DNA of 64,000 nucleotides, taken from positions 1 through 64,000 of the forward strand of contig SXNL01000242.1 in assembly GCA_005777185.1 (NCBI GenBank), read 5' to 3'. The stretch comes from Myxococcales bacterium (GTDB taxonomy: Bacteria; Myxococcota_A; Polyangia; Polyangiales; Polyangiaceae). Below, one piece after another: positions 40,769 to 47,740 of this stretch; the first letter of the stretch is position 1; each line of letters opens with the position of its first letter. A program made the translations under genes and the position numbers. The notes below the pieces were generated by a model. The model was not told the origin of the DNA and made no database searches. It saw nothing but the letters and a program-made list of their open reading frames with translations.

Positions 40769-40789
40769 GCGGTGCTACGATCGGTTCGC

Positions 40790-42928
40790 ATGAGGAGCCG
40801 CCGGGTTCACGCGCTGGTGCTCGTCACCCTTGGATCCTTCGGCGCTGCGTTCGCCGCGTGTGGGGATCCGGCGCGCGACCTCTTCGTGCGCCCCTACGAC
40901 TCAGGCGTCGCCGATGCCCGTCCGTGCGACGCGTGCGAGGCCGGCGACGCCGAGACGGTGGATCCCACGCTCGGCGGTCCGTGCCTCGACGACGCCCAGT
41001 GTCAGGACGGCATCCTCTGTACCTTCGATCGCTGCGACAAGGGGATCTCGCGTTGCAGGTTCAGCCCGGATGACGCCCAGTGTCAGGACGGGAACCACTG
41101 CAACGGCAAGGAGATCTGCGCGCCGCGCCTCGGGTGCCAGCCCGGGCCAGCCGTCACGTGCCAGGATGGCGACGCCTGCACGGTGGACCGGTGCGTCGAG
41201 GCGACGCGATCGTGCGAGCACCTCCCGCGGGACGCCGACGGCGACGGCGATCCCACGGACCACTGCGTGTCCAAGCGGGACTGCGACGACGACGATCCCA
41301 CGGTGTCGAGCAAGCGCGGCGAGATCTGCGGAAACGGCAAGGACGACAACTGCGACGGCCGCGTGGACGAGACGCCCTGCGGCGTCCCGGTGGGCGACAC
41401 CTGCGCGGCCGCCATCGCGGTGACCGCGCCGGGGGCGTACGTGGTGTCGACGGTCGCGGCCAAGAAGGACCACACGGCGTCCTGCTCGGTGACGACCCCG
41501 GCCGCCTCGACCGACGTCGTCGTGGCCATCACGATCCCGGCGGGAGGGCCGAGGGACGTCGCCATCCGTGCGTCGTCCGCGACCACGGAGATCGCTGTCG
41601 CCCTCGAGACGACGTGCGGCGTGGCGGCCACGGACGTGGGCTGCCAGGTGGTGAAGAAGGGCGTGGAGACGCGGCTCCTCGGCCGATCGCTCGCGCCGGG
41701 GACGTATTTCCTCCTCGTTTCCACGCAGGACGAGGCGACCGTCGATCTGCGCATCGACTTCCAGCCCGCGACCACCCGGCCGACGAACGAGTCCTGCGCT
41801 TCGCCCGCGGCGATCCCGACGGACACGGTGGTGCCGGTCTCGATCGTCGACGCGGCGAGGGATCTCGCCACGGGCTGCACGAAGAGCGCGACGGGCGACC
41901 TCACCTACGCGTTCACGCTCGCGGCGCCGAAGGACGTGCGCGTCTTCGCGCAGACGGTCTCGGGGACGGGGGCGGCCGTCGTGAGCCTGCGCGGCTCGCC
42001 GTGCGCGACGACCGAGACCCGGTGCCGCGTGGGGAACGCGCCTCCGCTCTTCGCGCGGAGCCTCCCGGCGGGAACGTACACGGTCGCGGTCTCGGCGACC
42101 TCGCCGATCGACGCGAACCTGCTCGTGAAGACCTACCCTCCGACCGTCGCGCCGGCGAACCAGACCTGTGCGGCGCCGCCTCCGGCCGTCGTCAACGCGC
42201 CGCTGTCGGTCGATCTCTCCGGCCAGGAGGACGCGATCCAGAACGGCTGCCTCCCCGGAGCGCCCAACGCGGCGTACGAGCTCGTCCTCGCGCAGCCGAG
42301 CGACGTCATGGTCATCGGTCGCTTTCCGCCCGGCGATCAAGGGGCGGTCGCCTTCGGCGGGACCGCCTGCACGGCCGCGGACACGCTGGTGTGCGCCGCC
42401 GGGGCCACCCCCGTGCGCATCTCGCGGCGCAACGTGCCGGCGGGCACCTACCGCGTGGTGGTCGCCGAGGAGTACGGCAAGACCGCGCGCCTCGACGTCC
42501 TCGTGCGGCCCACCGTCCCGCCCACCGTCGTCTCCGGAGCGGACGACTGCGCGTCCGTGCTCACGATCCCGGGCGCCGGCGGCTTCTTCACGGGCGACAC
42601 GCGGACCGCTACGCCGACGTTCAGCGCGGGGTGCGACGTGGCGGGTCTCCCGGCCGGGGGCGCCAAGGATCAGATCCTGAAGCTCGTCCTGACGCAGCCT
42701 CGGCGCGTCGTGCTCAACATGGACGGTTCGACCTACTCCACGGTGCTGGACGTGCGGAGCGGCCTCGCATGCCCAGGGGCCGAGGTCCCCGACGCGTGCT
42801 ACGCGGGGACCTCCGGGCCGCGCAGCTTCCTGGACCTCTCGCTCGGCGCGGGGACCTACTTCCTGCAGGTCGACGGCTTCAACAAGGACGAGGGCCCATG
42901 GAACCTGGACGTGCGCGCGATCCCCTGA
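40790..42928 (+). CDS. Cell-surface lipoprotein with Cys-rich repeats and a MopE-like metal-binding motif
   Basis: The 712-residue protein starts with a signal (VHALVLVTLGSFGAAFAAC, lipid-anchor Cys24). Cys-rich repeats of the kind CQDGILCTFDRCDKG, CQDGNHCNGKEIC and CQDGDACTVDRCVEA follow (about 70-142). Next is the putative metal-binding motif known from MopE (D-A-D-G-D-G-D-P, then C-D-D-D-D-P, E-I-C-G-N-G-K-D-D-N-C-D-G, about 148-194). The rest comprises four or five related beta-rich modules of about 110 residues, each with a PAGTY- or APGTYFLLV-like strand and one Cys pair. Myxobacteria encode many such surface proteins. MopE binds copper; the metal here is not known. It ends within the start of the thioesterase gene. 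Confidence 0.85.
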   Translation: MRSRRVHALVLVTLGSFGAAFAACGDPARDLFVRPYDSGVADARPCDACEAGDAETVDPTLGGPCLDDAQCQDGILCTFDRCDKGISRCRFSPDDAQCQDGNHCNGKEICAPRLGCQPGPAVTCQDGDACTVDRCVEATRSCEHLPRDADGDGDPTDHCVSKRDCDDDDPTVSSKRGEICGNGKDDNCDGRVDETPCGVPVGDTCAAAIAVTAPGAYVVSTVAAKKDHTASCSVTTPAASTDVVVAITIPAGGPRDVAIRASSATTEIAVALETTCGVAATDVGCQVVKKGVETRLLGRSLAPGTYFLLVSTQDEATVDLRIDFQPATTRPTNESCASPAAIPTDTVVPVSIVDAARDLATGCTKSATGDLTYAFTLAAPKDVRVFAQTVSGTGAAVVSLRGSPCATTETRCRVGNAPPLFARSLPAGTYTVAVSATSPIDANLLVKTYPPTVAPANQTCAAPPPAVVNAPLSVDLSGQEDAIQNGCLPGAPNAAYELVLAQPSDVMVIGRFPPGDQGAVAFGGTACTAADTLVCAAGATPVRISRRNVPAGTYRVVVAEEYGKTARLDVLVRPTVPPTVVSGADDCASVLTIPGAGGFFTGDTRTATPTFSAGCDVAGLPAGGAKDQILKLVLTQPRRVVLNMDGSTYSTVLDVRSGLACPGAEVPDACYAGTSGPRSFLDLSLGAGTYFLQVDGFNKDEGPWNLDVRAIP

Positions 42929-43392: not shown

Positions 43393-44223
43393 TCAGTCGC
43401 ACCCGATCGGGCCGACCTTCGCAGGGTCCAGGCCCTTGGCGACGTCGGTCGCGATCTGCAGCAGGCTCCGCGCGTGGGTCGTGTCGAGGCGAAACGCCGT
43501 GGTCGTCCTGCGCGGCGAGCCCTCGGGATCGTCGCGGTGCGAGATGAGCCCCACGAGCGCGCCGCCGTTGCCGTCGACGATCGGTCCGCCGACGTCGCCC
43601 TTGCACAGCGGCACGTCGATGGTGATCGCCTCCGACTCGATCGCGACCACCGAGCCCGGACGGCCCTTCGCCCGGATGGGCTCGCCCGCGCACTTTCCGA
43701 AGCCGAGGGCGGAGATGCTCCCGCCGATGCCCGGTGCCATCGCGACCTTCGGCGGCTCGACCCACTCCGCAGGCTCCGCGAGCACGAGGACCGCCACGTC
43801 GAGGTGTTTCCAGGAGCAGTTCGGCGCGACGACGATCGCGACCTTGCGCTGCGTCCACGTGAGCGTGCTCGAGGCGAGCTCGACCCTCACTTCCTGGTCG
43901 GCGGGGACGACGACGGCGTTGCGCGCCTTCTTGACGCACTGGTGGGCCGTGGCGACGAGCCGAGGACCGATGACGACGCCGGAGCAGACGGCCTCTGGCG
44001 TGTGGACGTGGACGAGGGCGCGCTCCTCGCGCGTCCCGACCATCGGGTGGTCGGGCTCGACGGCGGAGTCGTTGTCGGGCAGCTCGGCGAGGCGCTCGTT
44101 CTCGTGTGCATGGGCGTGCTGCACGACCTGCGGACCGCCCACGTTGGAGGGCTTCTCCTGGTTGACGAGCTCCACGCCGCCGCAAGCGGCTGCGGCGAGC
44201 GCGAGGGGGAGAATGCGCTGCAC
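43393..44223 (-). CDS. Trypsin-like lipoprotein with Ser-to-Val change at the nucleophile position
   Basis: The 276-residue protein begins MQRILPLALAAAAC, giving a lipoprotein signal with Cys14. The mature part has the chymotrypsin fold: VCSGVVIGPRLVATAHQCV with His94, HLDVAVLVL with Asp142, and LCKGD-V-GGPIVDGNGGALVG. The last motif is normally G-D-S-G-G-P; here residue 211 is Val (codon gtc, 43591-43593), so the nucleophile is missing and the protein should be catalytically dead. The His-Cys spacing is also altered by one residue (H-Q-C). It is nine bases downstream of the NrsF-like anti-sigma gene, so it is probably part of the sigma-factor operon and may be a binding or sensing protein. 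Confidence 0.85.
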   Translation of the reverse strand: MQRILPLALAAAACGGVELVNQEKPSNVGGPQVVQHAHAHENERLAELPDNDSAVEPDHPMVGTREERALVHVHTPEAVCSGVVIGPRLVATAHQCVKKARNAVVVPADQEVRVELASSTLTWTQRKVAIVVAPNCSWKHLDVAVLVLAEPAEWVEPPKVAMAPGIGGSISALGFGKCAGEPIRAKGRPGSVVAIESEAITIDVPLCKGDVGGPIVDGNGGALVGLISHRDDPEGSPRRTTTAFRLDTTHARSLLQIATDVAKGLDPAKVGPIGCD

Positions 44224-44232
44224 GCCCTGAGG

Positions 44233-44922
44233 CTACCCGAGTCTCCCGCGGCCTGGAAGGGACGTCGTGCCGAACAGCCGGTCGCCGACGAGCGCCCCCG
44301 CCGCGGCGAGCCCCACGAGCGGCAGGACGTGGCCGAGCGCGACGTGCGCCAGCTCGCCGACCCAGCAGTGGAGCACGATGAGCGCCCCCCCCAGGGCGCC
44401 GATGGCCGCAAACAGGAGCGCGCCCGTCGCCCGAGGATGCACCGGATCGATGGCGCGGTACGTGGCGCCGACCGCAGCGAGCGGGCCCGCCGCGTACGCG
44501 AGGGTGATCGCGAAGCATGTAACATGCATGGACACCGGGACGGCCGCCTCGCCCGCCGCCCCGAGAAGGTGCTCGAGGAGAGCGTACCACGCGAGGAGCA
44601 CCGGTCCCATCGCCGCCGCGCAGGCGACGAGCAGGCGCGTGGGCGGCCCGAGCATCGCGCCTCGCCTCCCGATCGCGAGCCACGCGCCCGCCATGGCGAT
44701 CGCCGCCCACCCGAGCAACGTGCCGTACACGAGCGTCGTGGGGCGGCCGTTCAAGTGCACTCCGCCCGTCAGGCCGACCGCGACGACGCTCGCGACGAGA
44801 CCCGCCGCGAGGAGGCGGGATCGCGTGCGCGAGACCTGCGCCCGCGACGGGGCAGGGGCGATCTTGATCGCGTCCTCGATCGTGGCCTGGAGCCGGCGCG
44901 CGTTTTCGCGGTCTCTCGTCAC
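44233..44922 (-). CDS. NrsF/DUF1109-like anti-sigma factor (six membrane helices)
   Basis: The 229-residue protein has a short cytoplasmic N-terminus (MTRDRENARRLQATIEDAIK) and six hydrophobic helices. The last two include IVLHCWVGELAHVALGHVLP, similar to the C-terminal part of NrsF. NrsF proteins hold ECF sigma factors at the membrane until a signal is sensed. The start overlaps the sigma-factor stop as GTGA, the coupling expected of a cognate sigma/anti-sigma pair. It is assigned mainly from topology, size and position; similarity is weak in places. The lipoprotein gene downstream may provide the envelope signal. Confidence 0.7.
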   Translation of the reverse strand: MTRDRENARRLQATIEDAIKIAPAPSRAQVSRTRSRLLAAGLVASVVAVGLTGGVHLNGRPTTLVYGTLLGWAAIAMAGAWLAIGRRGAMLGPPTRLLVACAAAMGPVLLAWYALLEHLLGAAGEAAVPVSMHVTCFAITLAYAAGPLAAVGATYRAIDPVHPRATGALLFAAIGALGGALIVLHCWVGELAHVALGHVLPLVGLAAAGALVGDRLFGTTSLPGRGRLG

Positions 44923-45497
44923 GAGGGCCTCCGGGCGATTGCGGCGCGCAGGGCCTCGTAGGCGCGATGAGCGCGCAGCTTGACGGCCGCCACCGTGGTG
45001 CCGAGGACGGCCGCCGCCTCGCCGAGGCTGAGCCCCTCCTGCTTGACCAGCTCGAATGCGACGCGCTGGTTCTCGGGCAGGTCCGCGAGCGTCGCGCGGA
45101 GGACGTCCGCGAGCCCCTGCGCGTCGACGAGCTCCTCCGCCGAGGCATCGACCGACGCGAGGAGGTCGGCGGCGTCGCCCTCGTCCGCGTCCTGGGCGAG
45201 GACGATGCGCCGGCCGCGGCGGTGCGCGTCGATGATGCCCCTCCGCGCGATCGCGAACGCCCAGGGGATCACCGCGGCGCCCTCCACGAAGCGCCCACGG
45301 GCGCCGTGGATACGGAGCATCGTCTGCTGCAGGAGATCGTCCGCCAGCGCCTCGTCGCGCGTCTGCCGATGGAGGAACCCGTAGAGACGCGGCGCGAGGC
45401 CCTCGTAGAGCTCTCCGAACGCCGCGTCATCGCCCGCGGCATAGCGATCCATCGCGCGGTCGAGGCTCGAGTCGTCGCGGGATGTCGCCACGAGCAC
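44919..45497 (-). CDS. ECF RNA polymerase sigma factor
   Basis: The protein has sigma region 2 (FGELYEGLAPRLYGFLHRQT, then DDLLQQTMLRIHGARGRF) and region 4 (LPENQRVAFELVKQEGLSLG, then EAAAVLGTTVAAVKLRAHRA), with an acidic linker. That is the minimal ECF/group IV architecture. GTG 45497 or 45491 gives about 190-192 residues; an in-frame extension further upstream falls into a palindromic repeat and is unlikely to be coding. It is translationally coupled to the NrsF-like gene by a 4-bp overlap. Its regulon is unknown, but autoregulation of the three-gene operon is common for such pairs. Confidence 0.92.
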   Translation of the reverse strand: MLVATSRDDSSLDRAMDRYAAGDDAAFGELYEGLAPRLYGFLHRQTRDEALADDLLQQTMLRIHGARGRFVEGAAVIPWAFAIARRGIIDAHRRGRRIVLAQDADEGDAADLLASVDASAEELVDAQGLADVLRATLADLPENQRVAFELVKQEGLSLGEAAAVLGTTVAAVKLRAHRAYEALRAAIARRPS

Positions 45498-45531
45498 CCC
45501 GTCTACCACGACGCCGGCCTGCCACGCAGGC

Positions 45532-45581: not shown

Positions 45582-45661
45582 GCTGCGCGGAAGAACAGAG
45601 GCCTCGATCGGCACGAGCGTCACGAGAGCGTTACGCGGGACGGCGGATCTGGTTTCGCACG

Positions 45662-47740
45662 TCAGGTGGCGCGCTCCCGGACCAGGAGACCGGCGGCGAA
45701 GAGGAGCTTGAGCGCCAGCAGCACGTCACGTCGCTGGCCGCGGACGAGGTCGGCTTTGTGGCCGGGCGGGCGCCGCTCGCCGAACGTGGCCTCGAGGATC
45801 TCTCCCACGGTCGTCCCGTCCGTGGCCGTGGCGAGGACGCGGGACACGGACGGTGGCCATACCACGTCGGTCGTGGTCCGGCGCGTCCCCGCGACGTGTC
45901 CGTCTCCGGTCCGGATGCGCGCGCCGAGCGGCAGCCCGAAGGACTCGAACGCGTCCCCGTCCGGGTGCTGCACGGCGAGGCCCGACAGCAGGATGGTGGG
46001 GAGGTCCAGGTCGAGGGGGAACTCGACGTGCTCGGGCTTCCGGGCGTCGTAGAACGAGGCCTTGCCGCGGCGCCACCTGAACGTGTCGGCGACGCGATCG
46101 CGCCCCTGGTCGCGGATCGCCCGGAAGACGCCCACCGGGCCGATGAGGCCCAGGGCGATGAGCGTGTCGCCCATCCGTCCGCCGTATCGTGGCAGGACGG
46201 CGAGCGCGAGGTCGAGCTCCTCTCGCGCCAGCTTTCCTCGCCGGACGAGGTACTCACCGAGGAGCTCCGTGGCGTCGCTGGAAGCGACGTGGTGGAGCTT
46301 TCCGTGGAGAAAGAAGAGCTCCTTCCGCCCCGGCGTCTCGCCCACCTCGGCGCGCGGGTCGGCCTCGTGCTCGACCACGAGCGCGCCCGTCGCCCGGTCT
46401 GCCACGAGGTGCAGGAGGACGTCGAGCATGCCGACCGTGCCGAGATCCTGCGTCCACGTCGGGCCGTCGGGGTCGGACAGGGTGTGGCCCTTCGTGCCCG
46501 TGACTGGAGCGACGAAGCGCGCCAGATCTTCGATGGATTCGATGTCGCGCATGCCCCCGCCGAGGTAATCGATGCGATCCCCGCGGCCGATGGCCCCCGT
46601 CGCGAGGAGCTCGACGAGCTTCGCGAACGTGTACGGCCCCCCTCGGGTGCCGTCCTTGAACTCGACGAGCGACGGCGCAAGCGCGTATTGGCCCGTCGTG
46701 TTGCCGCTGTCTGGCGGCGGGGAGTCGGCTCGTCCCTGCTCGCGCGGGGGGGGAGCCGCGACGGCGCGCATCGCCTGCACGCTCTGGTGCACGGCCTTGA
46801 TGCCGTCCGCCGATCCGAGGCGCTCGACGCGCTTTACTCCCGCGGCCAGGTCCCGTCGGGCCATCGCCGGATCCGCCTCGAAGGGTGAGAGCGCCTCGTT
46901 GAACGCCAGCGCGGACGGGAAGCGTTCCGCAGCGGAGCACGAAAGACCCCGCTTGAGCACCTCGTACAGCCCGACGGGCAGGTCGTCCCTCGCCGCGTCG
47001 AGCAGATCGGTCCTGCAGTCCCGGATCTGCAGGAGCACCGCCAGCTGGCCCGTGCCGGGGAAGAGTGGCCTGCCGAGCAGCATCTCCGCGAGGACCACCG
47101 CCAAGCTGAAGAGATCCGCGCGCTGGTCCGCCGGCTCACCGGCGACCTGCTCCGGCGCGAAGTACGAGAACTTCCCGCTCAGCACCTGCGCCCCGGTCGA
47201 CGCGGGGCCGACCAGGGAGCGTGCGATCCCGAAGTCCCCGAGCTTCACGCCGCCCGTGCGCGACAGGTAGATATTCGACGGCGACACGTCCCGGTGCACG
47301 ATGTCGAGCCGGTCGCCGGCCTCGCCCCGCGCTTCGTGCACGCTCGCGAGGGCGCGCAGCACCTCGCGCGCCACGTACACCGACACGCCCGGGCTGAGCG
47401 CGTCGCCGTCCTGCCGAAGGGCGCGAAGGAGGCGGTACAGATCCGCACCCTCGATGTACTCCATCGCCAGGTACGGTTCGCCCTGCTCGTCTGTGCCCGC
47501 CCCGAAGACGCTGACGACGTTCTCGTGATGCACGCACGCGTGGAGGCGCGCCTCGCGGTCGAACATCGTCCGGCCCTCCGTATCCGCGCCGAAGTGGGGG
47601 AGGAGGCGCTTGACGACGAGCCGGTCCGGGAAGGGGCCTCCCACCTCGGCCGGGTGCGCGAGGAACACCTCCGCCGTTCCCCCGACGGCGATGCGCGCAT
47701 CGAGGTAGAACGGACCGAAACGAACGGGCTTCGCGGTCAT
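45662..47740 (-). CDS. Ser/Thr protein kinase with GYF-like and PATAN/DUF4388-like domains
   Basis: The 692-residue protein has an active-looking kinase domain: VGGTAEVFLA loop (19-28), Lys44, H-R-D-V-S-P-S-N with Asp151 and D-F-G with Asp169. A Pro-rich linker leads to a GYF_2-like segment (EFKDGTRGGPYTFAKLVELL, about 355-400). A PATAN/DUF4388-type region follows (GMLDVLLHLVADRATGALVV, then KELFFLHGKLHHV, about 430-530), and the end resembles a GspE-N-like helical domain (LGEYLVRRGKLAREELDLAL, then GRMGDTLIALGLIGP). There is no membrane helix, so it is cytoplasmic. PATAN-like domains occur in signalling proteins of bacteria with type IV pili. The sigma-factor operon is downstream; the multiheme lipoprotein gene is divergent. 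Confidence 0.9.
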   Translation of the reverse strand: MTAKPVRFGPFYLDARIAVGGTAEVFLAHPAEVGGPFPDRLVVKRLLPHFGADTEGRTMFDREARLHACVHHENVVSVFGAGTDEQGEPYLAMEYIEGADLYRLLRALRQDGDALSPGVSVYVAREVLRALASVHEARGEAGDRLDIVHRDVSPSNIYLSRTGGVKLGDFGIARSLVGPASTGAQVLSGKFSYFAPEQVAGEPADQRADLFSLAVVLAEMLLGRPLFPGTGQLAVLLQIRDCRTDLLDAARDDLPVGLYEVLKRGLSCSAAERFPSALAFNEALSPFEADPAMARRDLAAGVKRVERLGSADGIKAVHQSVQAMRAVAAPPPREQGRADSPPPDSGNTTGQYALAPSLVEFKDGTRGGPYTFAKLVELLATGAIGRGDRIDYLGGGMRDIESIEDLARFVAPVTGTKGHTLSDPDGPTWTQDLGTVGMLDVLLHLVADRATGALVVEHEADPRAEVGETPGRKELFFLHGKLHHVASSDATELLGEYLVRRGKLAREELDLALAVLPRYGGRMGDTLIALGLIGPVGVFRAIRDQGRDRVADTFRWRRGKASFYDARKPEHVEFPLDLDLPTILLSGLAVQHPDGDAFESFGLPLGARIRTGDGHVAGTRRTTTDVVWPPSVSRVLATATDGTTVGEILEATFGERRPPGHKADLVRGQRRDVLLALKLLFAAGLLVRERAT

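Follow-up and report, generated by a model that had tools for sequence, protein, structure and literature searches.

The window, by which we mean the whole stretch of 64,000 nucleotides that was analysed, contains on its minus strand three genes in tandem, encoding in order an ECF sigma factor, an NrsF-type anti-sigma factor and a lipoprotein of trypsin fold (Table 1). The sigma protein also gave a generic ECF match besides its two Pfam regions. The close packing of these genes described in an earlier note on this DNA was confirmed, with the sigma stop and the anti-sigma start overlapping as GTGA at 44919-44922 and nine bases separating the anti-sigma stop from the lipoprotein start. The sigma start given in that note (45497) is plausible, and an alternative at 45491 (GTGGCGACATCC, giving MATSRDD...) agrees with the relatives equally well. 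The claim of a single operon of three genes is also supported, and co-transcription of the sigma, anti-sigma and lipoprotein genes is probable. We considered the kinase gene further upstream as an additional member, but it probably lies outside the operon because a conserved sigma promoter stands between the kinase and sigma genes. The source genome is 82% complete and belongs to a family that includes Labilithrix.

Table 1. Features at and around the sigma/anti-sigma/lipoprotein locus, with the motif-preceded genes of the source genome.
Feature	Position	Strand	Basis or remark
ECF sigma factor gene	44919..45491, or to 45497 with alternative start	-	Pfam matches to sigma-70 regions 2 and 4
NrsF-family six-helix anti-sigma gene	44233..44922	-	Pfam NrsF, residue conservation, hydropathy
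Lipoprotein pseudoprotease gene, trypsin fold, 276 aa	43393..44223	-	Pfam, orthologues, structure model
Cys14 lipobox codon	44182..44184	-	invariant in 14 orthologues
Gln95 codon, catalytic His position	43939..43941	-	alignment to intact paralogues
Asp142 codon, catalytic Asp position	43798..43800	-	retained in 14/14
Val211 codon, catalytic Ser position (GDVGGP)	43591..43593	-	
Predicted ECF-type autoregulatory promoter CGAAACC-N15-CGTA	45632..45657	-	motif shared upstream of sigma genes
Possible second promoter, extended -10-like GTGGTAGACG	45500..45509	-	just before start codon
Ser/Thr kinase gene with DUF4388 and weak GYF_2 match	45662-47740	-	just upstream of sigma promoter
MopE-type metal-binding-motif lipoprotein gene	40772-42928	+	
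Motif-preceded genes, source genome	L205, upstream of 1488 (subtilase); L206, upstream of 1461 (moaA)	-	
Motif upstream of cytochrome P460-like lipoprotein gene, source genome	L133, upstream of 1463 (-)		

Seventeen genomes have the sequence GAAAC(N)-N15/16-CGTA, mostly as CGAAACC, in front of the sigma gene, and the corresponding predicted promoter of the window lies immediately past the stop codon of the kinase gene. The extended -10-like sequence just before the sigma gene is a possible second promoter, and (A/G)TG(A/G)TAGAA-like sequences, as judged by eye, occupy this place in many relatives.

The anti-sigma factor matched Pfam NrsF (PF06532) with 37.2 bits, above the curated cut-off of 26.8, and the anti-sigma factors of its relatives did so with 52-70 bits. 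Kyte-Doolittle hydropathy gave six hydrophobic segments, consistent with six membrane helices, and no periplasmic domain; the periplasmic loops would be of about 15 residues or fewer, a placement that assumes a cytoplasmic N-terminus and comes from hydropathy rather than from a dedicated topology predictor. Among the 35 relatives aligned, 34 share C136 and 34 share C186, and none departs from H193, H198 or P201. The two cysteines stand 50 residues apart, as do C131 and C181 of Caulobacter NrsF (PMC3511200) and C129 and C179 of Bradyrhizobium OsrA (PMC3420878), and in both of those proteins substitution disturbs the control of the sigma factor. H193 and H198 lie near the sensor Cys186 and are possible metal ligands.

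The lipoprotein gave Pfam scores of 50.4 bits for Trypsin_2 and 47.1 bits for Trypsin, and its proposed chymotrypsin fold is borne out by these matches and by an AlphaFold2 model (pLDDT 82, pTM 0.79, with residues 1-43 of low confidence), which is a trypsin fold and matched trypsin-fold structures with Z of about 20-22 in Foldseek and VIA comparisons. Anchoring as a lipoprotein is supported by the conserved lipobox Cys14. The complete His-Asp-Ser triad of active S1 peptidases is absent. The replacement of the catalytic Ser by Val211 and the retention of Asp142 had been recognised in the earlier note; its third assignment, His94 as a retained catalytic His, was wrong. VATAHQCV of the window protein aligns without gaps to VLTAHHCV of intact paralogues in both phmmer and BLASTP alignments, so the catalytic position is Gln95, and a retained catalytic His is ruled out; His94 is the neighbouring residue, at a position where several orthologues have Gln or Arg. 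With Gln95 and Val211 at triad positions, two of the three triad residues have therefore been lost. An intact S1 paralogue is encoded in the same genome (G000 contig C203), with both His and Ser present (TAHHC and GDSGGP); it is 33% identical to the pseudoprotease across the trypsin domain and has the same cysteine positions, but lacks the residues specific to the pseudoprotease.

The nearest solved structure is Streptomyces UmbA, which was ranked first by Foldseek, by sequence profile (1.6e-11 versus 5.7e-6 for the best non-UmbA molecule) and by VIA-align (Z 21.7, rmsd 2.9, 189 residues), its lead in fold lying within the tie range (Z 21.7 versus 20.9, with ordinary proteases tied at 20-21). 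The UmbA trypsin domain has no full triad, is inactive and holds the N-terminal strand of UmbB in its cleft (PMC11062931). Both proteins are exported bacterial trypsin folds with an incomplete triad, but UmbA has lectin domains as well and belongs to a secreted particle, unlike the window lipoprotein, which ends with its trypsin domain. Because the C-terminal lectin domain of UmbA type is absent, we take UmbA as a precedent for how the fold works and not as evidence of membership.

A family profile search over 183 genomes of the order gave 14 orthologues of the pseudoprotease, scoring 354-442 bits; the next matches, at no more than 130 bits, are paralogues of the intact type, several of them in the same genomes. 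A fifteenth match from another search (G023) is an intact paralogue and was left out. The 14 orthologues form a single clade (support 99/97), in which both the catalytic His and the catalytic Ser have been lost throughout and the Asp is invariant. At the Ser position 11 proteins have Val and the other three have Thr, Ala or Arg, each once; at the His position 10 have Gln and four have Arg. A Ser was looked for in close relatives and none was found among the 14 orthologues, so the claim of a lost nucleophile stands. Seven residues (His72, His74, Ser118, Thr124, Arg126, Asp203 and Thr242) are invariant in the family and different in the intact paralogues, and Arg68, likewise lineage-specific, is common to 13 of the 14. 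The only close pair of orthologues, G091 (Labilithrix sp. ACE_MYX5, contig JAHBWA010000033.1) and G092, gave a dN/dS of 0.14; the distant pairs (0.43-1.03) were set aside because their sequences have diverged and GC-rich codon bias inflates the ratio. Judged from these sequences, this is an old and conserved pseudoprotease family that is maintained rather than decaying, and a single origin of the loss of catalysis fits the data.

The three-gene order was sought in the relatives and recurs. The pseudoprotease gene lies directly behind the anti-sigma gene in 3 of the 14 genomes (the window's, G081 and G089), that is, in two genera besides the window's. A starch-synthase-like gene stands between the two in G002, G090 and G093, and in 8 of the 14 genomes the pseudoprotease directly follows either the anti-sigma gene (3) or glgA (5). 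G091 and G092 have kept glgA and the pseudoprotease alone; in G011 the sigma, anti-sigma and glgA genes are about 10 kb away from it; in G001 it follows an acyl-CoA thioesterase gene in the same direction, the sigma and anti-sigma genes being located on a different contig; and in G026, G061, G082 and G094 it is located elsewhere. A wider block common to the relatives comprises the thioesterase, a MopE-like lipoprotein and methylmalonyl-CoA mutase genes. Synteny of the window's MopE-type gene with the genes for the thioesterase and the pseudoprotease is conserved, and in several relatives Glyco_transf_5 starch-synthase-like genes stand between or beside the anti-sigma and pseudoprotease genes at L058, L059, L078, L080, L081 and L083. 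Anti-sigma matches occur in 39 and the pseudoprotease in 14 of 108 genomes of the family. An orthologous sigma factor was not found at E 1e-30 in G091 (96% complete), G092 (83%) or G061 (99%), and the close pair that shows purifying selection on the pseudoprotease consists of two of these genomes.

The regulon motif was drawn up by eye from the same genomes that were searched with it as a pattern, and it exceeded the reversed pattern in most genomes keeping the sigma factor (motif/reversed counts of 12/3 in G011, 11/2 in G089, 12/0 in G095 and 8/0 in G001). The corresponding counts in sigma-less genomes were 1/1 in G091 and 8/7 in G061, with G092 (6/2) as an exception, and in the G021 group both patterns were numerous. 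Of 40 matches in the genomes of five relatives, 21 were intergenic, versus 18% at random, and 17 stood where a correctly oriented ORF begins, versus 4.3%. The motif precedes genes for a lipoprotein MsrA (in three relatives), DUF1223, a YceI-like protein, a peroxiredoxin lipoprotein, MoaA (in the source genome and in a single relative), a P460-like lipoprotein, porin-like proteins and an S1 protease. Several of these targets are supported by one to three genomes each, and the YceI, porin-like and S1 names come from reading the sequences, the YceI-like protein being without a Pfam match. The sites in the source genome are at the sigma operon, moaA, the P460-like lipoprotein gene and the subtilase gene. 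The S1 protease gene in G011, with an intact TARHC (L171), has the motif 31 bases upstream. The motif apparently marks an envelope-oxidation regulon, whose membership is predicted here. We also considered the pseudoprotease as a member of this regulon everywhere; this was unsupported, because no copy of the motif was found at the pseudoprotease where it is unlinked from the sigma gene (G001, G026, G061, G082, G091, G092 and G094).

The sigma/anti-sigma pair can be compared with Caulobacter SigF-NrsF and Bradyrhizobium EcfF-OsrA (ECF16, DUF1109/NrsF), which likewise consist of an ECF sigma factor and a linked six-helix NrsF anti-sigma factor. The Caulobacter promoter GTAACC-N16-CGAA and the CGAAACC-N15/16-CGTA found here are both of AACC type and autoregulated, but differ in the -10 element. 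Envelope methionine-sulfoxide targets, predicted here from the motif, may also be common to these systems, and the motif targets resemble the three methionine sulfoxide reductases controlled by EcfF/OsrA (PMC3420878) and YedY, the target of SigF (PMC3511200). The likeness to ECF16 includes the linked NrsF anti-sigma factor and the autoregulated promoter, the match of the sigma factor itself being to ECF factors in general. Unlike either system, the window has a trypsin-fold pseudoprotease lipoprotein as third gene and its host belongs to the Polyangiales.

Two other systems resemble the locus in composition. In the CarQ-CarR-CarS operon of Myxococcus, an ECF sigma factor is combined with a six-helix anti-sigma factor of DUF1109 type and one further gene (PMC9304148); CarR is described as having little similarity to the other DUF1109 factors and as occurring in the Cystobacterineae only. 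The order of sigma, six-helix anti-sigma and third gene is as in the window, but CarS is a small DNA-mimic antirepressor and no lipoprotein. RseA-RseB (MucA-MucB) is similar in having an envelope protein encoded behind the sigma and anti-sigma genes, its fold being unrelated. RseB and MucB are known accessory envelope proteins of anti-sigma factors, and RseA and MucA are cleaved and possess a domain in the periplasm, whereas NrsF offers short loops only. We found no description of a pseudoprotease in an anti-sigma operon in the open-access literature.

The explanation that we favour, to which we give about an even chance, is a SigF/NrsF-type (ECF16-like) oxidant switch joined by an envelope binding protein of dead-trypsin type that is one of its outputs and not its obligatory sensor, the third gene being lineage-specific. 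From its sequence, the switch appears to be of a known type in which thiol sensing is built in. Thiol-active oxidants or metals would act on the anti-sigma factor's own C136 and C186 and release the sigma factor, which would then transcribe its own operon from CGAAACC-N15-CGTA and also a few envelope redox-repair genes, among them those for methionine sulfoxide reductase, peroxiredoxin, MoaA (molybdenum cofactor), DUF1223, YceI and the P460-like lipoprotein. The pseudoprotease, tethered in the envelope, would most likely work as a binding or adaptor protein, with a peptide or protein held in its former substrate cleft. It is best read as being co-expressed with the switch in some lineages as an envelope binding protein.

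Against this output role, the linkage of sigma and pseudoprotease could be inherited synteny (with glgA, asnS, the thioesterase and the MopE-like gene), the lipoprotein then being an unrelated envelope protein whose position is without regulatory meaning. The surrounding genes are conserved together, and the pseudoprotease occurs behind glgA or thioesterase genes or alone and is selected without the sigma factor, but the spacing is tight (9 bases in the window, about 28 in G081), the same-direction placement directly behind the anti-sigma gene or glgA is repeated and the operon promoter lies upstream; we consider a mere neighbour possible but somewhat doubtful. The earlier note had proposed that the dead protease triggers the anti-sigma factor, and a ligand- or peptide-binding protein that adjusts the threshold of the anti-sigma factor through its loops, as RseB does with RseA, would have the right membrane face, a fold capable of holding peptides, the precedent of RseB and MucB, and genes that are adjacent in three genera and probably co-transcribed. 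The anti-sigma factor, however, retains two sensor cysteines of its own and presents short loops without a periplasmic domain, and most NrsF systems of the family occur without the pseudoprotease (39 versus 14 genomes). The retention of the pseudoprotease, under purifying selection, where an orthologous sigma factor was not found argues against an obligate-sensor role. Such a sensor is therefore unlikely in our view, and its boldest form, a peptide- or ligand-binding co-regulator that gives the redox switch a second input, is more doubtful still; if true, it would mean a pseudoprotease-gated sigma factor. Of the earlier interpretation, then, the probable operon, the conserved dead protease, the envelope anchoring and the gene order, seen in two other genera, were upheld, and the trigger role was not.

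There is very little to recommend a residual or altered hydrolase activity through a non-canonical set of residues: the Asp, the oxyanion-loop glycines and the cystine positions are retained, but the orthologues have Val, Ala, Thr or Arg in place of the nucleophile and Gln or Arg in place of the base, with no evident alternative conserved nucleophile. We rejected a recent mutation, pseudogene or sequencing error, since 14 open orthologues have their dead sites in common; decay or error would account for the missing residues and nothing more, and has next to no probability given the intact reading frames, the family's own invariant residues and the low dN/dS of the close pair.

What is known at this locus, as far as sequence can tell, is the type of switch, and what appears to be new is the trypsin-fold pseudoprotease lipoprotein as third gene of the operon. 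The pseudoprotease, carried by some soil myxobacteria, is probably made during oxidative stress, as an envelope binding protein rather than as the sensor of the switch. Bacterial pseudoproteases are little studied, and here a bounded, conserved family of dead trypsins, whose intact paralogues occur in the same genomes, stands next to a redox-sensing sigma switch for which a promoter and a regulon are predicted. The locus thus offers a way to test the role of a dead trypsin fold in the envelope stress response, and the SigF/NrsF oxidant response appears to reach the Polyangiales, with a promoter motif that can be tested.
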